DNA from: Symbiodinium natans
Taxonomy: Eukaryota > Sar > Dinophyceae > Suessiales > Symbiodiniaceae
DNA: 64,000 nt
Direction of reading: 5' to 3'
Assembly (NCBI GenBank): GCA_905221605.1
Contig: CAJNDS010002386.1
Span: forward strand, 310,001-374,000
The translations under genes and the position numbers were made by a program. A model generated the notes under the pieces. The model was not told the origin of the DNA. It did not search any database and saw only the letters and a program-made list of their open reading frames with translations. Below are positions 15,419-28,713 of the stretch, piece by piece; position 1 is the stretch's first letter; each line of letters starts with the position of its first letter.

Positions 15419-18400
15419 GACGTCCTGTGGGACTTGGGCTGTGGAGATGGCGTGGTCCTCATTGAGGCACCTGCTAAGACCCTGCGAGAGGAACAGTTGT
15501 CCTTTATCGACGGCCTTCGTTTGCATTGCAGTCATTTGCAGTCTGTTGGTCTAGCAGTGGGGCTTCAGTGTTGAAGCTTCGGCATCTTCCGAGGTCTGCA
15601 TGAGGCGGTCAAAGCTCCTGCATGCTGATGCCGGACGTTGGTCCTGGCAAGCCCTCAACAATAACTCCACCTGAAGATGCCCAGTTTCGCCCCGTACCAT
15701 GTGATTCGCTTGTTGCTTTTGATCCCAACCATCCTCTCCTCTGCTGCATGTCTACAGCACTCTGCCAGCCTCGGCACACCTTCACCAAAGTAACTTCAAT
15801 CGTGATGCTTGCCCTCGTGGCATTTGGTTCGAACCGCGCGTTCTTGGAGCGCCTTGCGCCCTACAACAGTTACTGGCGTGCGCCAATGCCCTCATGCGAA
15901 ACGCCCTTGTGAAGCCGAGCTTGCTTTAAAGTTCAGATTGAATACATTTGAATCTGCTGGCCAACTGCAGCTAAAGAGAATGCATTTGCGCCATGCAAGA
16001 AAGGAATAGGTAGGCCGCTGTTCATCTTTTCGTCCGCATAGGCGGCGCGCCGCTGTGGCTGCCGCTGTGTAGGGTTGGACATCGATGGGCCGCCTAGGGC
16101 TCAGCTATGCTCAGCTTCGGTTTGCAGTGTGCGCCGCCAATGCTATGACGTTTCCCGATCACAGTGCTTTAGGGCTGGAACAGAAGGAGTGCTGCATGTG
16201 CCTTTGTCAAGTTTCACCTTTCATACCAACCTCAAAAGTTGTGCACATGCCCCGATTCCATATGAAATCGCGCGGTGGAGAAGCCGGGTGTCTGTGTTTC
16301 GTGTGACAAGGTGCATTGCCACGGCAAGACAGCGTGCCAGGGAAGCCAATGTCGAGGCCTGCAGACAGAAGACCCCATAATCAGGGGATTTCACTAGTAA
16401 AGAGAGTAGGCCCTGAGTAGGCTTTTATCAAAGAGCCATGTCCATTTGCTTTGGCCGCGTGTGCAGGAGCGCTGCAAATGGCTGCGCTGCGATATGCTGC
16501 AGCTTCCTCAGGCCGATGCACGTCAAATGCACGTCTGCACATGCCGGCAAGTGGCATTCTTGATGAGATCGTTTTGGTCGATCTCGCTGTTATCCTATCT
16601 GCTTGTGCTTTGTGGAAAGCAGATGAGAATGATTGAGAATGATGCTCATGACACCAATGATCGGCAGGCGATTCATACTTGACAGCATTGCAAAGCCCTG
16701 ACAGAGAAACAGTCAGTTCCCGATAGTTAACTAAACTGGCCCCAAACCACCGTTTAGCTGTACATACCAAGTAGGGTTAGGAGAGCAGATTCGGATGACT
16801 GATTGTATTTTGGCTCAAGGAAAATAGGCGTGCCCGTTGTGCGTCTTTCCTTGTCTTAAGTACCTTTGTTGTACTTAACTGGTTAACAGCCTCAGGCTAC
16901 GTGGTCACTTTGGTAGGAACGTAGGCAAAGCCGCGCGCCGCCATAGTGCCCCCTCCATAACCGCACACCTGCCTTGAGAGTGTGCTTGAAATTGCGCGAC
17001 AGGAGCCGCTGGCCCTGCCTCATTCATACTTCACATCCAGCATTGTGTCGAGCCAGAGCCAGGCTCAGCAATTGCATTCACTTCACCTGCAAGCCACCGT
17101 TGGGCTTTCCACGTGGCATTCCATATCTCGAAATCTTCGATCGTGCATGCAAAGCACTGAGCCGGAAGAGCATTACGCAACACACCTCCACATTTGGGTT
17201 CATTTCATTAAGGCCTTGCGTGAGAAACGCATCACGCGTTTGTTGATTGCTCATCCGCTAAATTGGTGGAGAAGGTTCGTGAGTAATCTTCTTGCTAATC
17301 ACTACAGAGAGGTATCGTTTGACTGGCAGCTTAGGGTCCTTGTCCGTGCTTTAACGTACGCCGACGATAGGTGGGTCCCTAGATTGCCTCAATACTTTCC
17401 GTGACATCCAGGTACATCGTGTGGCTGCGCATCTCCGCTGCGGTGTCGAGGTGCTCGCCCCTCTTGCCCTGGTTGGTTCTGACTTTCGGACTTCACTTCA
17501 AACATTCCTGAACATCTTGCCTTTGTACCCTCTCCTGTGAACCCGTGCACGGTTTAGGGAGGCTAGGCCTTGTGGGTACCCTAGGCGTCTGACGAAGCAT
17601 CACTGCATCACCGTGTGCTTCGCCTCGAACTGCCCAAACAGCAGGTTCAGTTCAGACTTCGATCTTCGCGTGGTTTGTGGTCTCCCTTCGGGTTGAGACT
17701 AAGCCCATCACTCCGCCAACAGCAAACCCACAGTGCCGTCGGCTTGACCACGCACTGTGAACGCAACATCGGACAAAGTCCCAATCCCTAAGAGGTTTCA
17801 GGGTCAAAGCAAAGAGAGTCGCGGGTCTTCCCCACTCTCATCCGTGTGCATTGGCTCAGACAGCCGGTTGAGTGCGTGTCGTTAGTTGAAAGACCTGCAT
17901 TGCCCCAATATCCCATCTGAGGAATCCCGGCAAGGTAGTCAAGCTCAGGCACTCTGCACACATTCTTCTGGCCACTTTCTAGGCTTGTTGGGGTCGCCGC
18001 CCGAATTAGGCTTAGAGGGGTCGCCGCCCGAATCAGGCTGTGCAATTGTCTCTGGTACCATGGGTTGGAACGATTTTTTTGCAGGCGTGGGAACGCGTGA
18101 CCTCTGAAGAGTCCTTTGTGGAGCGTGTGACTGCTGCTTTTTCCAGGGCCACGAACTCGCCTGCGGTCAAAGGCTCGTCTGAGTTCCGTCGGAGGAAAGC
18201 TGTCCTCTTGGTGGTCATCCGTGCGCTGGTGCAGCTTCTCATCGGTACTCAGCAACAGTCTGGGGCCATACGGCTGGTCCGAACTCGAGAAAGAGAGCTC
18301 GAGGGCACGGAGGCATTGCCATATCATCCTTACGCTACGTTCGTCGAGGATACCCTGGAAGAGGTCAGGGGAGTGCTTCAGGCACCTTCGCCGGAGCCTG

Positions 18401-21400
18401 AGATACCGGCTCCGAGGACTCCTCCTGTCGCAGTGCGTTCCAGATCTCCGCCTCGTTCCTTGGTTGAGGGTTCTGACCAAACTCCGGTACCTCCTAGACC
18501 GCGACCGAAACATAAGGGTGATCGAACCCCTGCACCTCCTAGGGCACGACCTAAACATAAGGGTAATAGAACCCCGGTTCCTCCCAAGGCAAGTACCTTG
18601 CCCGGAACACCAGGTCCGTCACGTGCACCGGAGGCTGCAGCAGATCTTCTTGTGTATCGTCCCAAAGCAAAGGCCCGACCCGAGTCCAGACCACCGCAGG
18701 ACTGGGAGTTGGACGAAAGAGAGTATCCAACCATAGCGGATTCGTTCAGGGAACAGGTTGAATTGGGACAACACTCAGATAGAGAAGCCATAAACCGGTG
18801 GACTACTGAAGAGTGGAGAGAGCATAATCAGGCGCTCTCATCTTCTTCTTCTGCCGCGCCGCGTGTTGCACCTTTGGAAGTGGTCGAAGTGCGTGAGGAC
18901 ATCCCTGTCCTGATTTCATTGGATTTCAGCGGGGTGCTCAACATCCACTTTCAGGACAGCCGAGATTTTTTGGACCGTTTGAACGCAGAGCGTCCGAGCC
19001 ACGTGAAGCTGAAGTTTATTTGCACGAGTTACTCTGGGACAGAACGGGCCAAAGAAACGCGTCAGTCGATGGCTTCGGAGCTTCCGGGCGTGCCAGTCTA
19101 CATCACTAGCTCTCCAACGGGCCGTCCTGGAAAAGGAGCCTTCATTAAGCGTTTGATGGACCGGCGGTCGGATCACTTTGCGTGTCATTTGGATGACAGA
19201 TCAGACATCGTGCGGGACGTCGAGGCGTATGGTGTTCACGGTATTTTGGTATCGCCGAATACGTGGCTGACTGATCTCGTGCCCACTGTGTTGTTGTGGC
19301 TGCGGTCCCTGTAAAACGCTAAAAGAGAGCTGCTGACCTTCAGGGGAACCTGGGGTTTCTATTGCCTGGCACCATGGCGATGAGTCCCGAAACTACTGAT
19401 TCCTCGCTCCAGGTGTCCACTTCCAGCACGCCGCCTACACAACAGGCGCGGGCACTCAGTGCTGTAAGGGCACAAGAAGCAAGGGTAGGAGAGAGCAGTA
19501 GTGATTCCACTCCCGTAAGAGCCGTTTCAACCGGAAGGGGAAGGTCCTCTCAACCCTATGCCTTAGCTAGTTCCCGAAATCGCTCTTCCTCCGCTAGGAT
19601 GCAAGCTTTGTTGCCTCCGCCAGCTTATGCATGTGAAGTTGCAAGTCCTGCACCAGCAAGTCAACCTGTTTCGCTTGCACCGGGCGATGGGACAACCACC
19701 CCGGATGTGCACTTGCATCAGCATGTTCAGCGCATTGCCCCAGAATTGCACCTGCGTCAGAGTCGTCAGGAATTGCATCTTCATGGGGTTGATTCCCGAA
19801 CACATTCTCAGGCCGTTGCTGCTGCACAGCTGGCACAAGCGCAAGCACAAAACATTCAACAGGACGCTCAGGTGTTTGCCCAGAACGTTCAGCATGAAGC
19901 TCAGGCATACGTGCAGGTTGCAAAGAGTGAGGCTCAGGCATATGTTCAGAGCGCTGTCACTTCTGCTCAACATGAAGCCATGCAGCACGCACAAGAGTAT
20001 GCAGAGCGCGTTAGGGCTGAAGCTGAGAGACAGGTCCAGAGTGTTTCAGAACAAGCCGGTCAGCATCTTGCACAAGCAAACGAAACCATTGCCTCACTTC
20101 AGGCTAGGAATCGTGAGCTTGAGGAGCAGCAGGAAGAAATGATGAAGCGGATTGCGATGATCCAAGCTGAGATGCAAAGCATCAAAGCTCAACAACAGTC
20201 CCAAGCCGACACATCCCACCTTCACGCAGAGCGAGTGTCGCAGGCCTCAAGGGCTCAGGACCAAAATGGCACGGAGATCAGTGAAGCCCTCAAGGCCTTG
20301 GCTGCAAGTGTTGGTGAGACAATGAAGGAGTTGCGAGAAATCGTCAGTCCCAAAGCATCCAAGCCTAAAAGCAAAGCGAAAGGTTCGGGGCTCCGAAACG
20401 GGACACCCTCCCCTAAGCATAAGAGTCCAAAGGTCTCAGCGACTCAAGGTCAAAGATCTGCTGGTGTGGCTGCTGCGCCTGTTCCAAATCGGTTTGGATG
20501 CTTCTGCGCACCCAGGTTGCCAGTTTTCACCGGTGTTGGTTTGCCGGCTCCGTCTAGATCCAAGAAGGGTTCTTCGAGTGACAATCCCTTCAACGTCTTC
20601 TCCACTCCCAAACCTCCTTCAGTCGTGCATCCCCCAGACCCTCCGATGCACTACGACATCGGGTCCGAACACGAGGAAGGTGAGGAGGAAGAGGAGAGGG
20701 AAGATGACCCCATCATTGATGTCACCGATGCACCGGGGGAAGAAGAAGTAGACTATGAGCAGGATACTTACCACAACAAAGATCTTCGAGACCTGAAAAT
20801 CCCTGCACTTCCTTCGACAGCCGCGGGATATCGAGCATGGAGGAACGGCGTTTTGACATCGTTCAGCAGCATAGACAAGAGTGGGAACGCCAGGATACTG
20901 AGATGGCTCCAGGTCGCCCTTGATCCAGCCATAGGAGACCGACAGATGCGCAATCTGCAGGTCACGTCTGACGGCCTTCCCCGCCTTGATGCATTCCTGG
21001 CTGCACAGCTTACAGATCCAAAACACCTCAAGGGAGACTACGGAGTCGCTGCCCAGGCGTTCACCGAGCGAGCACATGCGTTAGGCGTGCAGCCTTCCGG
21101 GCGTGCGCTGTTGGCAATGCTCAGCCGAAGGTTTCGGGTAGACCGGATCAGGGGGGCGACAGTCTCCCAGCAGACACTCTTAGCCATCCAGCTCGAAGGC
21201 TTCAGCCAACAACAACTGCAAGCCTTTAGAGAAAAGGTTGAGTTTTGTTTGAACGGTTTCAGTCCCGAAGCATGGCCCGCTGAGTCTACCTTGTTTAGCT
21301 GGTTATACTCCAGGCTCAAGCACTGCAGGCTTCTTTCCAGAGCAGTCGACAAGATCAAAGACTCCAATCCAGGTAGCAACAAGCGAACCTTTGCGTGGTT

Positions 21401-24400
21401 GTGGTCGCAGCTTGTCGAATTGCTAGATGAGCTGAGAGAAGAAGCAAACGAAGAGTCAATTCGTGACACTCTCATCAAGCCCAAAGCCAAAGCTGCTCCC
21501 GCCCCAAAGAAAGAGGAGCGTTCCCGCGATAAGCCGGACAAGCCCACTCCTGCCAATCCAGCCCCTCCGGCCAAGACCAAAGGTTCTGGGAAGGATGGGA
21601 AAGACAAGGATGGCAAGGGAAAGGGGGGTAAAGGGAGTGGTAAGGGTGCAGATTCACAGAAAACACCAAACAAGCCAAAGGCGAAATCAGGCGGTAAAGG
21701 CCAGGGCTCCAAAGCTGAAGGCAAAGCCCCAAGCAAAGGAAATGCCCCCAAAGCTACCGTACCATGCCTGTTCTTCCCAAAGGGAACGTGTAACCGGGGT
21801 GAGAATTGTCCGTTTTCGCATGAGACCTCTCCCGGTAACAAGGCCCCAGGGTCAAAGACTACTGGAGCTAGCGCTACGGCAAAGAGCTCTGCCGCAGCTG
21901 TCGCCCTGCTGCTTCCCACTACGGCGCGGGGTGCCTCGGTCGATGGTTCCTCCACACCGAGCAAGACAACCTTTTGGAAGCGTTCAGGATTGAGTAGGTT
22001 CTTCCAGTTCGTTTCGGGGTGGTTTACTGTGTTCAGCAACATCTGCGCTCCTGCCTGTCCCGCCACTGTCACTCCGTTGCTTGTAGCATCTCAGCATCAG
22101 CACCCGCAACAGGGATGGTTCTACCACGAGTGGATCGCTGATAGTGGTGCAGGTAGATCCCTAGAGAGTCGTGAAGCCCTCAATGAACAAGGCATTCCTG
22201 AAGACGCATACGCACACATGGCCGAACAGGCACCCACAGTATCCTTTTCCACAGGGAATGGTGTCGTTGATTCAGGGCTCATGCTTGGCTTCGAGGGTTC
22301 CATTCTAGGAAACAATTCTGCATATCTCCTGGACAACTGCCCTAGTGTAAAATCACTTGGTGAGTTGGTAGAGACAAAGTCTATGCCGTTTGTATGGTTG
22401 CCAGGAAAGCTTCCGATGTTCCTGTCGAGTGTCGAACACGTTCAGGTCATTGAAGAATCCGCCATATGTGCCGATAGAGTTGAGGGAAATGTTCCAATCT
22501 TCAGGGAACAGGTCAGATTCGTCTCGCCTTCCACTGTTGCGATGCCTGGCTTCATGAGCGATGCTAGAAAGGCAAAGCCTCTTGCACGCACTACCATAGA
22601 GCCTTCACGGCACACCACGTATCGACCCTCGCCGCATATCACGGAGGAGTCTACCTTGCTTGAGTTGTTGCAGGATCCAGGGGTGCCGTCAAAGACCGCC
22701 TCCGGGTCTAGAGATCCTCCACCTGACTCTGATGACGAGCTGAAGTCTAGGGCAAAGTCCTCTTCAGCAAGAAAGCCAAAGGCTAAACCAAGTCCAAAGG
22801 ACAAGGTCAAAGGTGCAAAAGCTCCTAAACCTGCTGAAGCAGCGAAGGCTCCGGAACCTCCTGCTCCAGTAGAACCCGAGGTCCCGCCACCTCCACTTCC
22901 TCCACCTGCCATTCCGCCAGGTTCTGGGTCGGACTCAGGAGAGGACGTGACATCAGAACGTCAGAAGCAACTCATCAAGGAGGCCTCTTCAATGGCACAC
23001 AAGTTGACGCATATCCCTAAGAATCCCTACTGTGAGATATGTCAGCGAAGCCGCATGTATCGACAAAGAGTCACCAAGAAGCGTGCAGAGCCTCTCGAAG
23101 ACAGAGGTGACTTGCCTCCTGTTGAACAGTTTGGCGAGAGGATTGCAACAGACTATATAATCCCTTCGAAGCGTGAGCATGCAGTCCATGTCATCAGGGA
23201 TGAATATAGTGGTGCACTGCGAGCTTTTGTCTGTGCGCGCACAGCTGAGAGAGCAGCTCAGAACCTCCTTACCTTTGTAGGCGCCCGATACAAGCACCTC
23301 CCGAACGTGTTGTGTAAGGCTGATGATGCAAAGGAGTTAATAGCTGCCGTCTCACAAATAGGATGGGTGCATGAAGCGACCCTAGAAAACAGATTTCCAC
23401 ACAACGCCCAACTTGAGAGAGAGATAAGAACTCTCGAGGAATCGACTCGCGCGGTGCATTTGGCTGCTGGGTTCCATGTGGTTCCAGATCTGTGGCATGT
23501 GTCCGTGCAGTTTGCCGCGCAGACTTTGACAGTTGTACCGTGGCAGGGCAAAGACAAGTCGCGTTTCGAGGTTGCAACTGGTTCCCCATTCGAAGGCCCA
23601 AGGCTTCCCTTGGGACAGTTGGTGCATTACAGGATCCATGACCCCAGCCGCAGGCATAAGTTCGAAGCTACAACTGCTCCCGGACTATTTGCAGGTTGGA
23701 GGTTTGAGCACGGATTTGTGTATCGTGACGTGATCTGGGTGCTAGACTATGAAGCCGTCAAGTCCAAGTCGATTGGGTATAGGGACATGATCCCCGTGCC
23801 ATATGCGGAAGTGCATGTCCCAGAGACTGAGACCTTCCCGCTAAAGGCCGCGGCGGATCTTGCTCTTCGCGAGTTCCAGGATCCCAAACTTGAGGCTATC
23901 ACAGCGCTGGACATACCATTCAGCTCACTGTCCCCTGCTGATCCTCCTCGAAGGCGCGCAGAGTACATTACGCTTGAACGCATTCTTAAGTTCGGTGCCA
24001 CACCAGGATGCAAAGCGTGCACTTTCGATTCCGTGAAGCATAGTCCTAAATGCCGAGCAAGATTCGATGCCCTGATAAAGGCTGATAGGATTGCGTTGAC
24101 GTCCAAGCCCCCTGAGCCAGTTCCTCCAGCTGAGCTCCCCGAAGGCGTTGGTCTCCACCCTTCGAGTGAGCCCGCTGTAGAAGGTCTTGTTGCGAAGGTC
24201 GAGCTCGGTGTGACGCAAGTCTTTGTCGATGTCAACAGGGAAAGAGTCCGCCAAAGAAAGGTGCAAACGCTCATAGGCAAGGATGTGTTGTTCGAATATG
24301 CGTGTGGCGACAGTTCAGAGCTTTCGCAAGCTGCGTCCGAAATTGGCATCAACAGTATCCGCTTATGCCGAAGCATGATTGATTTGTCCAACGAAGAACA

Positions 24401-27400
24401 TGTCAAACAAGTTCAAGGTCAGGTCGAAGCATCGCCAGGTTGTGATGTGTGGCTCTCATTGCCGTGCACCGAGTTCAGTCCGTGGCAGAACATGAACGTC
24501 CATAGGCATGGGGCGAAGTACGGAAAGGGTCTTCGGAATCGCCAAGAGAAGAGCAAGCTTATGTTCTTGTATGCCCGCAAGGTACTCGCAACTGCCATCG
24601 CAAATCATGGAAGGATCGCAGTCGAGTGGCCCAAAGGGTCCGGCTGGTGGGATCTCCCTGAATGGAAAGAATTTCAGGATGAACATGGTCTACACAAAGT
24701 GTCTTTTGATGGCTGCATGGCTGGAGTGAAGGGCCGAGAGCATCCAATCCGCAAGCCCTGGAGCGTAGCCACTAATGATCTGCGACTTGTTCAATTTCTT
24801 GGACAACTGCAATGTGACGGTAGCCACCAGCACGAGGCCGCCGAAGGCTCACAAACAAAGCAGACTGAAGCATACCCACGAGAGCTCGCTCACAACATCG
24901 TCGAAGCGTGGTATCCGCAACGCTACCATCGCCACATCCCCTCCATGGTCACGAAGAACTTAACAAAGCGGGAATGGAAAGCAGACCCGCGCGGAGTTGC
25001 AGCCGTGAAGAAGGAGGCAGAAGGGTTACGTTCTAACGGAACGTGGGATGATTTGACAGTCTGTCTTTTGTCTTCCTTGCGTGCCGATGCAAAACGGCAA
25101 AACCGTAAACTCAAAATTGCAGAGCTTCTCACATTATGTGGGATAAAACATTTCGAACTCCCTGAGCATGAACACAAGTTCAAAGGGAGAATCGTGTACA
25201 GGGGGGACTGCATTTTTGACCAGTTCGGAAACCATGTTCTTTTTGAAGACGTGGCTACCACACCAACTTCCTTGGTTGCCCTTAACATCGCATTGTTTTT
25301 CGGCTGCCAAGATGGAAACGCAGTGAGCCTTGCAGATGCCATTCAGGCGTTTCTTCAAGCTGACCTCGCTGAGGCAGGAGAGCCCGACACATGGGTTATC
25401 CTCCCCGAGGAGCTGTGGTTGGACACATGGCACAAAGCGTACCCATCAGGGTCGAAGTTGGTGGTAAGGTTGAAGCGAAGCTTATATGGCCATCCGCTTG
25501 CTGGCAAACTATGGCAGAAACACCTAGCCTCTGTTCTCACTTCCTTTGGTGGCATTGAGATGGATTTGTTTCCTTCAAACTTCATCTTTCAAATGGGTTC
25601 CCATACCCTGCTACTTAACGTGTATGTAGATGACCTAACGTTGTCGGGAGCAAAGCATCTTCATGCACAGTTTTGGAAAAGGCTGAGAGCGCATATCAAG
25701 CTGGAAGACGAATGTTACATCGAAGCCTCGAATGCACGGATCCTTGGCAGAGGTCACCGAATCCAACGAGGCAGTGACTTCACAACTCTTGTGCTTGATA
25801 TGTCTGCTTTCGCAGAGCAGGTCGTCGAGGCGTACTGCGAGCTTGCTGATGTCCCAAAGGCAAAGCTCCGTAACGTCACAACCCCAAGTTTGTCCGAGGC
25901 GTTATTGTCAGATGAGGACCTGCAGCAACCCGGCACACTGAGCCATGTAGCTGCAAAGGTACTTATGAAAGCACTTTGGCTGGGTCGGTTGGCTCGCCCT
26001 GATCTGTGTTTCATAATCGGTCGGTTAGCGTCACGAGTGGCCGCGTGGACTAAATGGGAAGACAAGCAGTTACTTCGCCTGATTTCTTATCTTCACGGTA
26101 CAACAGGCTTATGTTTAGCTGCTACTGTGAACCATCACGAAGCTCCCCAGATCCACATCTTCACTGACAGTGATTTCGCCTCTTGTCCGCATAGTGCAAA
26201 ATCGACGAGCGGGATCTACATGACTATAGGGTCAACAGATTTCCGCTTTCCGCTGTGGTGGGCATCTAAGAAACAGACGAGTGTTGCAAGAAGCACTCCC
26301 GAGGCTGAGGCCATAGCAATGGCTTCCGCCATGTTTGGTGAGGCCTTGAACATTCAGGTCATGATGGAGCATCTCCTCGGTCGTGCTATCGACGTCGTAT
26401 TCCATCAAGACAACGAGACCTTGCTCAAAGTCCTGGCTACAGGCTATTCGGCGAAGCTGAGACACTGCAATCGAGTCCACAGGGTCAACATTGCATCAAT
26501 GTCTGAACAGCTAGAGTCGCCACAAGTCACTGCCGTGTACTGCAAGAGCGAATCTCAGATAGCTAATGGCCTAACAAAAGTCATTCCACCTGCAGAATGG
26601 CCACATACTCTCGCACAGTTTGGCTTGACAGCATCCAGCGATGGACCCCACCTGGAAATTGCCGTCGCCGCACTTGCAGAGGCAAATCTTGCCGCAGAAG
26701 TCTTCGCAGGCAGTTGCCCAAAGGTCCCGACTTGTCAGCATCTGGTGCAGCTACTGACGCTGTTACCTCATGGTCCTGATAAGAGGGGGGCACCGGGGCA
26801 CGACTCGCATGTATTTTCTGCGGGCGCATTTGTCTTAGGAGGAGTGTTTGGCCTGCAGACAAACACACACAAATTTCAATATGCAACGGCGTTGATATGT
26901 CGATTCTTTCGACGTTATATGCCATCACACAAGTTCTCAAGCATAATCGTGCAGCAAGGTGTAGTCGCGGGGCTCCACCGAGACTCCAACAATGCAGAAG
27001 GCTCAAAGAACCTCCTTGTAGCGTTAAATCCAACAAGTGGACCCATATTGTGGGTAGAAGATGAGGAAGGGACTGTCCAATGTCCAAACGACGACAGCCT
27101 ATGGGGTCACATGTTGTGTAACCCTGCACTCTTCAATCCCAGAGCACGCCACTGCACAGTCCTGACAGGATGTGAGGCTTCAGAACGAATCGTTGCCATA
27201 GCATTCCTGATCAGAAATGCCGAGCGCTTGAGTCCTTCAGACCGCGCAACACTACTGAGCGCAGGTTTCAACCTGCCCTCAATCTGCTAGTCCAGTCTCA
27301 CCGTTCTGTCTCCTAAAGGGGGGAGTTAACTAAACTGGCCCCAAACCACCGTTTAGCTGTACATACCAAGTAGGGTTAGGAGAGCAGATTCGGATGACTG

Positions 27401-28713
27401 ATTGTATTTTGGCTCAAGGAAAATAGGCGTGCCCGTTGTGCGTCTTTCCTTGTCTTAAGTACCTTTGTTGTACTTAACTCCGATATCTTCCTGACTCAAT
27501 GCAGCATATCCGGCAGTCGGCATACATCTTCCACAGTCTGCGTGCCGTCTTTCGAATTCGGTCAGTTTTCGAAACTCCTTGTAAGACAATAGGTACTCCG
27601 GCCTCCTGTGGAGACATACGGTCATATGGTTAAAAAAGAATTACAAGCCATACTCTTAAATGCTGCTGTATGCGAGCTGTGCTGATCGTAAGCTAGGATT
27701 TGAAGTGGAAGCCCTCGATGGTCGCAGATATCACAGTTTCTAGACCGTCTAGACATAGCTCTTGTACCGGCAAGTGGCATTTCCCAGGGCACGCTCAGCG
27801 CACACTGCCACGAGAATGAGGACTTTCGACCAAAGGGACGGCTTAGGCTGGTGGTCACCCTTTTCAATGTTTGTTTCAGCTACAGGAGCTGCGAGACCTT
27901 CCTGCGGCGACGTGTGCGTTGGTGCTCCTGACGCACTTGTGCACATGCGCATTCATGGCAGTGGTGCTCCTTGTTTTTCATTGCGGCCTTGTCCTCGCCC
28001 TCGCTTCCATCGAGGAATCTCGTCCAGATCTAGGAATGAGAGAAGTGCCCCATCACTGTGCGAAGCTGCAACAGGTTCTTACTTGCTATCACAGCTGAGG
28101 AAGTCCTTGACTCGAGGTTCATGAGTCAGTCGCTGAAGTCCAAACACGATGGAGACTCGAGAGACTTATTCAAGTTTTTTCCAGACAGCTCTTTTCAATG
28201 GTGAGCAGTTCAGTTGGATTCCCCAAGTGAGCTCACAAAAAGTAAAAATGATAAATCTCACTACAACTTGGCACAACTTGGCACAATGGGGGCTGCCGGG
28301 AGCATAACCTTGCAGAAAGGTGCTGTGGAGGTTTCCCAGGCACGGGAGCCACCAAATGTGTAGCAACCCGAGCCCTCGCCTTCTCTACTAGGTCTAGTTA
28401 CTGTGCAGGGAGGGATCGAAGTCCAGCTCTGTGGAAGAAACAAAAGCAGCAAAAGCTTGCATAATTATTAGCACTTGTCCATCTTGCAGTCGCGCCAAAG
28501 ACACGGATGTCTGAAAATGCCAGGTGTTTCTGACTGCGCATGGCCTGGTCAGACTGTCCAAGTGGTTGCATGAGGACTGGGACAGTCATGTGAGTGACGC
28601 CCAAGCGGTCAAGCCATCAAGCCCTTTGCAGTTCTTGCAGGAGTGGCGGGAAGGCTCTTCCAGACAGCTGCGGTTGGTGACATGTGTGGAGCCCCTCGTC
28701 AAGAGAGGAGAGA
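15419..28713 (+). CDS. Class I SAM-dependent methyltransferase, multi-exon gene interrupted by a retrotransposon
   Basis: The exons join in phase. 15419-15466 encodes motif I (VLWDLGCGDGVVLIE, glycine-rich SAM loop). 16042-16088 follows (AARRCGCRCVGLDIDG, with the ribose-binding acidic LDID). 16311-16356 is CIATARQRAREANVE. 16467-16511 is ERCKWLRCDMLQLPQ, with the motif III-region Asp. ~27880-27945 is ELRDLPAATCALVLLTHLC (hydrophobic strand 4). 28632-~28713 is LQEWREGSSRQLRLVTCVEP, a strand-5-like block. All four junctions I could define use GC donors (GCACCT, GCCGCC, GCCTGC, GCCGAT). The intron after 16511 holds the whole copia element, in the same orientation. The layout resembles small protein-lysine methyltransferases of the FAM173/METTL kind, but the substrate is unknown. 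The 5' and 3' ends of the gene were not located. Confidence 0.8.
16720..16724. repeat. Target site duplication, left copy (CCGAT)
   Basis: CCGAT stands immediately before the left LTR and again immediately after the right LTR (27480-27484). A 5-bp duplication is the standard footprint of copia-type integrases. Confidence 0.95.
16725..16880 (+). repeat. Left LTR, 156 bp
   Basis: The LTR begins AGTTAA and ends TTAACT, so its ends form a 6-bp inverted repeat instead of the usual TG...CA. The boundaries are set by the identity of the two copies and the flanking CCGAT duplication. It contains ATTTTGGCTCAAG at 16807-16819, equal to the 3' end of the dinoflagellate spliced leader. There is no TATA box. 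Confidence 0.97.
16807..16819 (+). promoter_or_regulatory. Spliced-leader-like segment inside the LTR
   Basis: ATTTTGGCTCAAG matches the last 13 nt of the 22-nt spliced leader that dinoflagellates trans-splice onto nuclear mRNAs. The preceding 9 bases match poorly (about 3 of 9). The right LTR carries the same segment near 27406-27418. It may mark the start of the R region, fixed from trans-spliced element RNA. That reading is inference. Confidence 0.7.
16881..16896 (+). promoter_or_regulatory. Primer-binding site matching the tRNA-Asn anticodon arm
   Basis: GGTTAACAGCCTCAGG starts at the first base after the LTR. Its reverse complement ends GGCTGTTAACC, the conserved 3' part of the tRNA-Asn (anticodon GTT) stem-loop: loop CTGTTAA, then CC. 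The primer 3' end would therefore fall near tRNA nucleotide 40. This resembles the half-tRNA priming of Drosophila copia, which uses a tRNA-iMet fragment. It does not match a tRNA 3' end. Confidence 0.65.
16897..18059 (+). other. Retrotransposon 5' leader, no supported coding
   Basis: About 1.16 kb separates the primer site from the first plausible start codon. Frames are short and show no domain. A minus-strand open frame at 17788-18558 mirrors the first reading frame and has no recognisable content. Packaging or internal regulatory signals would be expected here but none is recognisable by eye. Confidence 0.6.
18060..19314 (+). CDS. Retrotransposon ORF1 with C-terminal HAD-like domain
   Basis: The open frame runs from 18040 to the TAA at 19314 (about 424 codons) but has no ATG near its start. 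The nearest ATG (18060, in ACCATGG context) reads MGWNDFF and is one base out of frame, across a run of seven Ts at 18074-18080. Residue numbers count from 18040. Residues 1-130 are helix-prone, 130-230 are Pro/Arg/Lys-rich with repeated 'RPKHKG' units, and 285-424 resemble a capless HAD domain. Motif I is ISLDFSGVLN (nucleophile D295), motif II CTS near 329-330, motif III K365 and motif IV HLDD (D385, D386). The usual second Asp of motif I is Ser297, so phosphatase activity may be weak or lost. This frame is not part of standard copia elements. Its role is unknown. Confidence 0.75.
18074..18084 (+). other. T7 run and CAG at the ORF1 start: slippage site or 3' splice site
   Basis: TTTTTTTGCAG lies between the ATG at 18060 and the long open frame. 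Loss of one T (T7 to T6) would fuse MGWNDF directly to LQAWERVT in the long frame. Alternatively, polypyrimidine plus CAG could be a cis- or trans-splice acceptor. Confidence 0.5.
19331..19379 (+). promoter_or_regulatory. Possible splice acceptor and start context for ORF2
   Basis: A short pyrimidine-rich stretch ending CTTCAG|G (AG at 19342-19343) precedes the ORF2 ATG at 19374, which sits in a good ACCATGG context. ORF1 ends at 19314, and the ORF2 frame only opens after a TAA at 19320-19322. The frames therefore do not overlap, and ordinary ribosomal frameshifting cannot link them. Confidence 0.45.
19374..27290 (+). CDS. Copia Gag-Pol polyprotein with methyltransferase-like and 2OG-dioxygenase-like domains
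   Basis: About 2,640 residues, unbroken. Numbering below runs from 19362; the likely start ATG is residue 5. Order: coiled coil 150-286 (Gln/Ala/Glu-rich); Gag-like region 470-705; Lys/Gly/Pro-rich linker; CCCH zinc finger C802-C810-C816-H820; aspartic protease D927-S-G-A; integrase zinc module H1213/H1217/C1224/C1227 and catalytic D1264, D1322, E1352; a Rossmann/C5-MTase-like insert 1640-1850; reverse transcriptase with D1992 (SLADAIQAF) and the YVDD box 2088-2091; RNase H from D2269 (FTDSDFAS) through the SKKQTSVARSTPEAEA region; and a C-terminal domain 2430-2642 with an HxD...H...R iron/2-oxoglutarate signature. The catalytic residues I can check are present, so the element may be competent. 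Stop TAG at 27288-27290. Confidence 0.97.
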   Translation: MAMSPETTDSSLQVSTSSTPPTQQARALSAVRAQEARVGESSSDSTPVRAVSTGRGRSSQPYALASSRNRSSSARMQALLPPPAYACEVASPAPASQPVSLAPGDGTTTPDVHLHQHVQRIAPELHLRQSRQELHLHGVDSRTHSQAVAAAQLAQAQAQNIQQDAQVFAQNVQHEAQAYVQVAKSEAQAYVQSAVTSAQHEAMQHAQEYAERVRAEAERQVQSVSEQAGQHLAQANETIASLQARNRELEEQQEEMMKRIAMIQAEMQSIKAQQQSQADTSHLHAERVSQASRAQDQNGTEISEALKALAASVGETMKELREIVSPKASKPKSKAKGSGLRNGTPSPKHKSPKVSATQGQRSAGVAAAPVPNRFGCFCAPRLPVFTGVGLPAPSRSKKGSSSDNPFNVFSTPKPPSVVHPPDPPMHYDIGSEHEEGEEEEEREDDPIIDVTDAPGEEEVDYEQDTYHNKDLRDLKIPALPSTAAGYRAWRNGVLTSFSSIDKSGNARILRWLQVALDPAIGDRQMRNLQVTSDGLPRLDAFLAAQLTDPKHLKGDYGVAAQAFTERAHALGVQPSGRALLAMLSRRFRVDRIRGATVSQQTLLAIQLEGFSQQQLQAFREKVEFCLNGFSPEAWPAESTLFSWLYSRLKHCRLLSRAVDKIKDSNPGSNKRTFAWLWSQLVELLDELREEANEESIRDTLIKPKAKAAPAPKKEERSRDKPDKPTPANPAPPAKTKGSGKDGKDKDGKGKGGKGSGKGADSQKTPNKPKAKSGGKGQGSKAEGKAPSKGNAPKATVPCLFFPKGTCNRGENCPFSHETSPGNKAPGSKTTGASATAKSSAAAVALLLPTTARGASVDGSSTPSKTTFWKRSGLSRFFQFVSGWFTVFSNICAPACPATVTPLLVASQHQHPQQGWFYHEWIADSGAGRSLESREALNEQGIPEDAYAHMAEQAPTVSFSTGNGVVDSGLMLGFEGSILGNNSAYLLDNCPSVKSLGELVETKSMPFVWLPGKLPMFLSSVEHVQVIEESAICADRVEGNVPIFREQVRFVSPSTVAMPGFMSDARKAKPLARTTIEPSRHTTYRPSPHITEESTLLELLQDPGVPSKTASGSRDPPPDSDDELKSRAKSSSARKPKAKPSPKDKVKGAKAPKPAEAAKAPEPPAPVEPEVPPPPLPPPAIPPGSGSDSGEDVTSERQKQLIKEASSMAHKLTHIPKNPYCEICQRSRMYRQRVTKKRAEPLEDRGDLPPVEQFGERIATDYIIPSKREHAVHVIRDEYSGALRAFVCARTAERAAQNLLTFVGARYKHLPNVLCKADDAKELIAAVSQIGWVHEATLENRFPHNAQLEREIRTLEESTRAVHLAAGFHVVPDLWHVSVQFAAQTLTVVPWQGKDKSRFEVATGSPFEGPRLPLGQLVHYRIHDPSRRHKFEATTAPGLFAGWRFEHGFVYRDVIWVLDYEAVKSKSIGYRDMIPVPYAEVHVPETETFPLKAAADLALREFQDPKLEAITALDIPFSSLSPADPPRRRAEYITLERILKFGATPGCKACTFDSVKHSPKCRARFDALIKADRIALTSKPPEPVPPAELPEGVGLHPSSEPAVEGLVAKVELGVTQVFVDVNRERVRQRKVQTLIGKDVLFEYACGDSSELSQAASEIGINSIRLCRSMIDLSNEEHVKQVQGQVEASPGCDVWLSLPCTEFSPWQNMNVHRHGAKYGKGLRNRQEKSKLMFLYARKVLATAIANHGRIAVEWPKGSGWWDLPEWKEFQDEHGLHKVSFDGCMAGVKGREHPIRKPWSVATNDLRLVQFLGQLQCDGSHQHEAAEGSQTKQTEAYPRELAHNIVEAWYPQRYHRHIPSMVTKNLTKREWKADPRGVAAVKKEAEGLRSNGTWDDLTVCLLSSLRADAKRQNRKLKIAELLTLCGIKHFELPEHEHKFKGRIVYRGDCIFDQFGNHVLFEDVATTPTSLVALNIALFFGCQDGNAVSLADAIQAFLQADLAEAGEPDTWVILPEELWLDTWHKAYPSGSKLVVRLKRSLYGHPLAGKLWQKHLASVLTSFGGIEMDLFPSNFIFQMGSHTLLLNVYVDDLTLSGAKHLHAQFWKRLRAHIKLEDECYIEASNARILGRGHRIQRGSDFTTLVLDMSAFAEQVVEAYCELADVPKAKLRNVTTPSLSEALLSDEDLQQPGTLSHVAAKVLMKALWLGRLARPDLCFIIGRLASRVAAWTKWEDKQLLRLISYLHGTTGLCLAATVNHHEAPQIHIFTDSDFASCPHSAKSTSGIYMTIGSTDFRFPLWWASKKQTSVARSTPEAEAIAMASAMFGEALNIQVMMEHLLGRAIDVVFHQDNETLLKVLATGYSAKLRHCNRVHRVNIASMSEQLESPQVTAVYCKSESQIANGLTKVIPPAEWPHTLAQFGLTASSDGPHLEIAVAALAEANLAAEVFAGSCPKVPTCQHLVQLLTLLPHGPDKRGAPGHDSHVFSAGAFVLGGVFGLQTNTHKFQYATALICRFFRRYMPSHKFSSIIVQQGVVAGLHRDSNNAEGSKNLLVALNPTSGPILWVEDEEGTVQCPNDDSLWGHMLCNPALFNPRARHCTVLTGCEASERIVAIAFLIRNAERLSPSDRATLLSAGFNLPSIC
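21765..21821 (+). other. CCCH zinc finger in Gag (domain)
   Basis: Pattern C-x7-C-x5-C-x3-H (CLFFPKGTCNRGENCPFSH), the single-stranded-RNA-binding CCCH finger of cellular proteins. It occupies the place where copia and retroviral Gag normally carry a CCHC zinc knuckle, between a basic linker and the protease. Probable role: binding genomic RNA. Confidence 0.85.
24285..24912 (+). other. Rossmann / cytosine-5-methyltransferase-like insert in Pol (domain)
   Basis: Between integrase and reverse transcriptase the protein has LFEYACGDSSELSQAASEIG (like motif I FxxxCGxxS), then VWLSLPCTEFSPWQNMN with a Pro-Cys pair at 1701-1702 (like motif IV PCQ-FS), then RIAVEWPKGSGWW at about 1752-1764, in the position of the ENV/ENP motif. 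The order and spacing fit a C5-methyltransferase-derived fold. The glutamate of ENV is E1755 followed by Trp-Pro, and motifs IX-X were not seen, so enzyme activity is doubtful. Confidence 0.55.
26649..27287 (+). other. Fe(II)/2-oxoglutarate dioxygenase-like domain at the Pol C terminus
   Basis: After RNase H the polyprotein runs on for about 210 residues. VVAGLHRDSNNAEGSKN supplies an HxD pair (H2539, D2541). FNPRARHCTVLTGCEASERI supplies the distal His (H2597) and an Arg 12 residues later (R2609). The HxD - about 55 residues - H - 11-12 residues - R spacing is the hallmark of double-stranded beta-helix dioxygenases. Members hydroxylate proteins or remove methyl groups from nucleic acids. The substrate here is unknown. 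Confidence 0.7.
27315..27323 (+). promoter_or_regulatory. Polypurine tract
   Basis: AAAGGGGGG abuts the first base of the right LTR (27324). It is the expected primer for plus-strand DNA synthesis. Confidence 0.93.
27324..27479 (+). repeat. Right LTR, 156 bp
   Basis: Identical to the left LTR on base-by-base reading, including the AGTTAA/TTAACT ends and the spliced-leader-like segment. Confidence 0.97.
27480..27484. repeat. Target site duplication, right copy (CCGAT)
   Basis: Matches 16720-16724 and directly follows the right LTR. Confidence 0.95.

Follow-up and report, generated by a model that had tools for sequence, protein, structure and literature searches.

A conserved, putatively TET/JBP-like oxygenase domain in copia and DIRS-like retroelements of Symbiodinium natans

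The polyprotein of a complete copia element of the dinoflagellate Symbiodinium natans continues beyond RNase H into a conserved domain of 213 residues. This domain, translated within the polyprotein, is probably a TET/JBP-like Fe(II)/2-oxoglutarate dioxygenase. The element lies in a stretch of 64,000 nucleotides (contig CAJNDS010002386.1, positions 310,001 to 374,000; hereafter the window), where the domain occupies positions 26649..27287 of the + strand. Good support for the originally predicted 2-oxoglutarate/Fe(II) dioxygenase comes from the conservation of the named residues across the domain family and from matches of its relatives to the Pfam family Tet_JBP, along with a weak match to TET2 that is in register. 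The domain is a family common to other retroelements of the S. natans genome. It is not special to the C-terminal end of copia polyproteins, since it also occupies other places in pol and is found in further kinds of retroelement.

Structure and age of the element

The element is bounded by two LTRs of 156 bp (16725..16880 and 27324..27479, + strand) that are 100% identical, each flanked by the same 5-bp target-site duplication CCGAT (16720..16724 and 27480..27484, no strand assigned). In the S. natans genome (759 Mb, 2543 contigs), we identified at least 21 copies with 99-100% identity, of which 14 retain an open frame of 2646-2655 aa. Aligned with the window, the other 20 copies cease to match at 27479-27487. 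Since both LTRs are identical, the insertion is recent, and the window element is complete, young and recently transposed. Its LTRs start with AGTTAAC and finish with TTAACT rather than with the usual TG..CA ends of LTRs.

A single open frame encodes the gag-pol polyprotein of 2642 residues (19362-27290, + strand, stop included). The gag region contains a CCCH zinc finger (21762..21821, +; Pfam zf-CCCH, 21.6 bits for a cut-off of 20.5), and residues 1936-2119 (25167..25718, +) match the reverse transcriptase family RVT_2 (E 7.9e-11; 42.4 bits for a cut-off of 31.6), which makes the element copia-type. Four landmarks that we take to be RNase H motifs (TDSD, TPEAE, HQDN and ANGLTK) follow at 26157..26591 (+). 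The element thus presents the features expected of Ty1/copia (RVT_2 above its cut-off, a pair of LTRs and a target duplication of 5 bp) except that its pol does not end with RNase H and carries 213 further residues.

An upstream ORF of 424 aa (18040..19314, +) did not match any Pfam family at E up to 1. It contains a 45-bp tandem duplication (18474-18563, 80% identical) and, in its C-terminal part, the stretch LDFSGVLN...HLDDRSDIVRD, presumably reminiscent of HAD-phosphatase motifs. Between integrase and reverse transcriptase, a segment at 24258..24917 (+) is collinear with the methyltransferase-like segments of the DIRS-like polyproteins described below and aligns with them at the FxG, PPC and ENP positions. 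Its reading as a DNA methyltransferase is based on these collinear motifs and found no support in profile searches of Pfam and PDB.

Conservation of the putative catalytic residues

The RNase H motifs finish near residue 2410 and are followed by 213-232 residues. The open frame and the four residues H2539, D2541, H2597 and R2609 were found exactly as originally predicted. H2539-R-D2541 (26976..26984, +; codons 26976-26978 for H2539 and 26982-26984 for D2541) would provide two Fe(II) ligands, with N2544 (26991..26993, +) completing an HxDxxN motif. H2597 (27150..27152, +) is the predicted distal Fe(II) ligand and R2609 (27186..27188, +) the predicted 2-oxoglutarate anchor. Together they form the putative signature of Fe(II)/2-oxoglutarate dioxygenases, an HxD...H iron triad with a basic anchor shortly after the distal histidine.

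We aligned 27 domains less than 80% identical to one another together with L083, L084 and L085 (alignment A4, 30 rows; L083 is the same place as L070, and L081 was left out, being the same place as L064). Of these 30 non-redundant domains, 29 retain the first H, 29 the D, 29 the N, and all 30 the distal H and the R, even though identity to the domain of the window is 22-37% in the remaining rows. The corresponding counts are 26, 26, 26, 27 and 27 for the 27 domains and 38, 38, 37, 38 and 39 when near-duplicates are included (39 domains). The latter count excludes L070 and L072, which fell below the tblastn cut-off although each has a domain with intact ligands, as well as L030-L038, six of which are places already fetched and three further copies of the L041 kind. 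The residues H, D, H and R rank among the 10-11 most conserved of the 213 columns, and four random columns would rank so with a probability of 2.5e-6 to 4e-6. Their conservation is therefore not a matter of chance. All five residues are intact in the 21 near-identical copies. In the window element, R2609 comes 12 residues after H2597; the equivalent spacing ranges from 9 to 12 across the alignment and equals 9 in 24 of its 30 domains.

Some members depart from this pattern. The first histidine is lost in L054, the aspartate and asparagine in L074, and the distal histidine in L055. Among database proteins, the closest relative listed (P0008, 57-60% identity) has glutamine in place of the first histidine and P0012 is without the distal histidine; P0011 keeps all ligand residues. 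The domain of the window itself differs from its family at conserved sites, with P132 for G, T129 for F and T173 for W.

We estimated dN/dS (NG86) for 16 pairs of domains with dS of 0.09-0.42. All pairs come from relatives, none includes the window's own family (its 21 copies show differences at just four codons), and some of the domains sit in shortened frames; because the pairs share members, they amount to few independent comparisons. The ten pairs without L050 and L055 yielded dN/dS of 0.13-0.24 (e.g., 0.13 for L047/L051, 0.18 for L067/L071, 0.20 for L056/L058, 0.22 for L039/L040 and 0.24 for L047/L049). The six pairs with L050, which lost the asparagine, or L055, which lost the distal histidine, yielded 0.22-0.50. 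The domain is under purifying selection in the relatives where this is measurable.

Distribution of the domain

A protein search of the S. natans genome with the domain produced 1454 candidates, of which 150 were scored. All 150 match at E <3e-13, and 149 of them contain no internal stop. Besides the 21 copies, the remaining 129 matches are divergent (28-40% identity); 75 of these lie in open frames of at least 1000 aa and 6 in frames of at least 2000 aa. Sequence was fetched for 40 of the 129 divergent places and for two places found with Tet_JBP. Because only 150 of the 1454 candidates were scored, the others may have lost ligands more often.

Searches of protein databases, which required shared 5-residue words, listed 4, 4 and 2 proteins (7999 candidates were scored in one of them). 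Two proteins are 100% identical to the domain of the window and both are named Symbiodinium natans. No relative outside dinoflagellates was confirmed in the viral_contigs, genome_contigs or phages sets, and a PHROGs search with the domain returned weak unrelated names only.

Comparison with known protein families

The domain of the window (P0001) matched no family in Pfam or NCBIfam, and its search against PDB returned two unrelated chains (E 0.54 and 1.2). Its relatives were more informative. Tet_JBP (PF12851) matches six of the 27 members at E up to 5, the best at 1e-4; five of the six were seen singly, when 20 of the 26 other members were scanned individually. Tet_JBP also matches L081 (E 0.026), P0011 (E 0.013) and 400-aa segments of L084 and L085 (E 1e-5 and 4.6e-6). 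The matches span profile positions 73-162, or 73-116 in three cases, and thus include the HxD portion, in some cases together with the distal H and R. All of them score below the cut-off of 34.9 bits, the best reaching 26.4 bits with hmmscan and 26.7 bits in the genome search. Because the E-values go down to 4.6e-6 yet the scores stay below the cut-off, we call the domain TET/JBP-like and not a certified member of TET/JBP.

Of 32 candidates from a Tet_JBP search of the 759-Mb genome, three matched at E up to 0.01, and their frames are 2771-2783 aa long; the same search of 14 control genomes returned no match. Two of the three were fetched and both are members of the domain family (the family profile matches one such sequence at E 3e-39 and 2e-43). 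In a six-frame search, by which intron-split host genes could be missed, these frames are the most TET-like sequence of the genome.

At E up to 10, the A4 profile retrieved four PDB chains, three of TET2 (E 0.5) and, above them, one unrelated chain (E 0.21). The alignment with TET2 is in register, with HRDLHN over HxDxxN and HATTP..R over HATxPW..R, but its second stretch scores 0.9 bits and the overall E of 0.5 is not significant. TET2 was not found in PDB with profiles A1 and A3 or with three single domains. Two AlphaFold models built from few sequences have low confidence (mean pLDDT 46 and 40), and fold searches with them gave no usable match. As in the original prediction, the domain may adopt a double-stranded beta-helix fold.

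Placement of the domain in retroelements

The domain follows RNase H in the same frame in the window element and in L040. In L039 and L044, it lies 214 and 115 nt after the RNase H match but not in the same open frame, which suggests that both copies are broken. In L081, L082 and L083, it was read by eye after an integrase-like region whose motifs we presume to be those of integrase. A PPC-containing methyltransferase-like stretch was also seen by eye before the integrase-like region in L081 (3-3779, minus strand) and L083, with the dioxygenase-like domain after it. P0011 and L081 share 97% identity across the domain region, and in P0011 the RVT_2 match (29.4 bits, just under the cut-off) is located 3' of the domain, which places the domain between integrase and reverse transcriptase. 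In L084, the domain stands immediately before a pre-integrase-like segment (by eye), and its relative L085 has the same order as far as its sequence was read. Where the surroundings were read, the domain therefore occurs at three different positions in copia polyproteins, and in addition in non-copia polyproteins with a DIRS-like reverse transcriptase.

The reverse transcriptases of L041, L045, L053 and L051/L080 weakly match RVT_1 (E 0.009-0.07) and not RVT_2. Their frames measure 1244-1308 aa, and L046 and L058 were placed with them by their similar layout. A methyltransferase-like segment, recognized by motif, is found 5' of the domain in L041, L045 and L053 and 3' of it in L046, L051 and L058. 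By analogy, these polyproteins look like the SymbioDIRS of de Mendoza 2018 (PMC5890265, available text), and we use the label DIRS-like because of this analogy and of the weak RVT_1 matches. No firm recombinase was detected in six upstream ORFs of DIRS-like elements, one of which has a weak match to Phage_int_SAM_1 (E 0.066).

We also searched for sister elements with the 256-aa stretch of the window element that covers the end of the reverse transcriptase and RNase H (148 of 1498 candidates scored). After the 21 copies, the next long relatives are C769 (53%), C2211 (56%) and C313 (51%), and in all three the domain begins 33-214 nt past the match. These long matches are followed by families at 46% identity or less. 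The frames of C1781 (46%) and C38 (42%) stop 10 and 37 residues after the RNase H match, and no domain was found in the 570 and 480 nt that follow the match. These two relatives fit the original statement that standard copia elements have nothing after RNase H. Short fragments were left out of this comparison (C2108, 87 residues, 91%; C2297, 110 residues, 52%; C1815, 138 residues, 50%), and their contigs had no domain match among the 150 scored. Because the three nearest full-size relatives have the domain and the two next ones read are without it, the C-terminal placement marks the clade of the window element, where it may have been gained or may be the only place where it was kept. In the domain tree, the window and L039 form a group (95/76) within a set of low resolution that contains DIRS-like domains. 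This tree, in which 4 of 27 inner branches are firm, hints at a possible exchange between element classes. Among the relatives of the copia reverse transcriptase and RNase H, some (C1893, C668, C2138 and others) have unbroken frames of 4000-6264 aa, which greatly exceed the gag-pol of the window in length.

Alternative explanations

Three other readings of the domain can be weighed against these results. It might belong to a different group of Fe(II)/2-oxoglutarate oxygenases (Asp/Asn hydroxylase-, AlkB- or prolyl-hydroxylase-like) and would then hydroxylate a protein, such as capsid/Gag or a host factor, or demethylate RNA. The HxD..H..R signature is common to the whole superfamily and L061, one of the 27 members, matches Asp_Arg_Hydrox (PF05118) above its cut-off (23.6 vs 22.6 bits, E 5.2e-5). 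Against this single match, the matches to Tet_JBP are more numerous (six of 27 members plus L084, L085 and P0011) and both HxDxxN and HATxP..R align with TET2, albeit weakly. Moreover, no AlkB or prolyl-hydroxylase Pfam family was found among the 27 members at E up to 5, with filters that drop weak matches. We consider another group fairly unlikely. Of the candidates named in the original prediction, TET/JBP is thus favored.

It is less probable still that the domain is a catalytically dead relative with a dioxygenase fold and a structural use, for example in binding nucleic acids or in holding the polyprotein. The members that lost ligand residues (L054, L055, L074, P0008 and P0012) and the off-consensus sites of the window's domain speak for such a relative, but the four ligands are intact in the window and in its 21 copies and nearly invariant across the 30 domains despite their divergence. 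Finally, the lack of annotation of P0001 in Pfam and NCBIfam would fit an open-frame run that arose by chance 3' of RNase H and contains no domain. This reading, to which we attach almost no probability, is refuted by the 150 scored matches, by the low dN/dS of ten pairs and by the conserved ligands.

Proposed role

If the domain is indeed a TET/JBP-like dioxygenase, it would be released from the polyprotein or stay tethered in it beside reverse transcriptase and integrase, and would there meet the element's cDNA or freshly integrated DNA. It could then oxidize the 5-methyl group of a pyrimidine, either 5-methylcytosine or thymine, and this oxidation would alter the marking or silencing of the new copy by the host. 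With 5-methylcytosine as the target, the product would be hmC and beyond, and CG methylation would be undone; the available text of PMC5890265 describes CG methylation as widespread in Symbiodinium. With thymine as the target, hydroxymethyluracil would be placed on the new copy. Oxidation of thymine fits as well as the originally proposed role of a demethylase or hydroxylase directed against host methylation, and the data do not choose between them. Thymine is an attractive target because JBP enzymes hydroxylate thymine, according to the available text of PMC12730594, and because TET-family enzymes are suggested as makers of 5-hmU in the available text of a review (PMC6723414). In dinoflagellates, hydroxymethyluracil is reported to take the place of 12-68% of thymine, and in Breviolum certain repeats are enriched in it (available text of PMC11071213).

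More speculatively, and with little confidence on our part, a guild of dinoflagellate retroelements (copia and DIRS-like) might carry base-editing modules that have moved between element classes and pol positions and consist of a TET/JBP-like oxygenase, in many cases with a methyltransferase-like segment next to it. Such modules would write or counter hmU/hmC marks on new copies and would thereby either add to the 5-hydroxymethyluracil found throughout dinoflagellate genomes or escape it. A dinoflagellate enzyme of 5-hydroxymethyluridine has reportedly been described by Li et al. (PNAS 2024), whose title is said to speak of a role in the silencing of transposable elements. Given that title, an element enzyme oxidizing hmU further would be an anti-silencing device. 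An oxygenase-like family has multiplied inside retroelements, and its named residues, together with related elements with and without the domain, open a direct way to test for the writing or erasing of hydroxymethyluracil by mobile elements.

Comparison with known systems

Both halves of this combination have precedents in print: retroelements with cytosine methyltransferases in dinoflagellates and charophytes (PMC5890265, available text) and DNA transposons with TET/JBP in fungi (PMC12730594, available text). The present domain itself was not found described in the open-licence literature, within the available text of sources that include PMC11071213, PMC5890265, PMC12730594, PMC12344493, PMC6723414 and PMC12721341. 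SymbioDIRS-Dnmt3 and SymbioLINE-Dnmt (de Mendoza 2018, PMC5890265, available text) are likewise Symbiodinium retroelements with a DNA-base-modifying domain in or beside pol and with shuffled domain orders, but they carry cytosine methyltransferases where we find an oxygenase-like domain. Copia is said there to lack any DNMT domain, and the available main text has no word beginning with 'dioxygenase' or 'TET'.

The TET/JBP dioxygenases (PF12851; TET2, NgTet1 and JBP1) share with the present domain the HxDxxN motif and the distal H and R in the register of TET2 (E 0.5), in addition to the Tet_JBP matches of its relatives. The present domain differs from them in scoring below the curated cut-off and in being encoded inside retroelement polyproteins. 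In fungi, several mobile lineages likewise have their own TET/JBP-type oxygenase, but according to the available text of PMC12730594 these carriers are DNA transposons and Helitrons, whereas the present ones are dinoflagellate copia and DIRS-like retroelements in which the domain is fused to the polyprotein. Judged from its sequence, the conserved, enzyme-like domain is real, and it would represent a TET/JBP-like oxygenase in copia and DIRS-like retroelements, as opposed to the known retroelements with DNMT and DNA transposons with TET/JBP.
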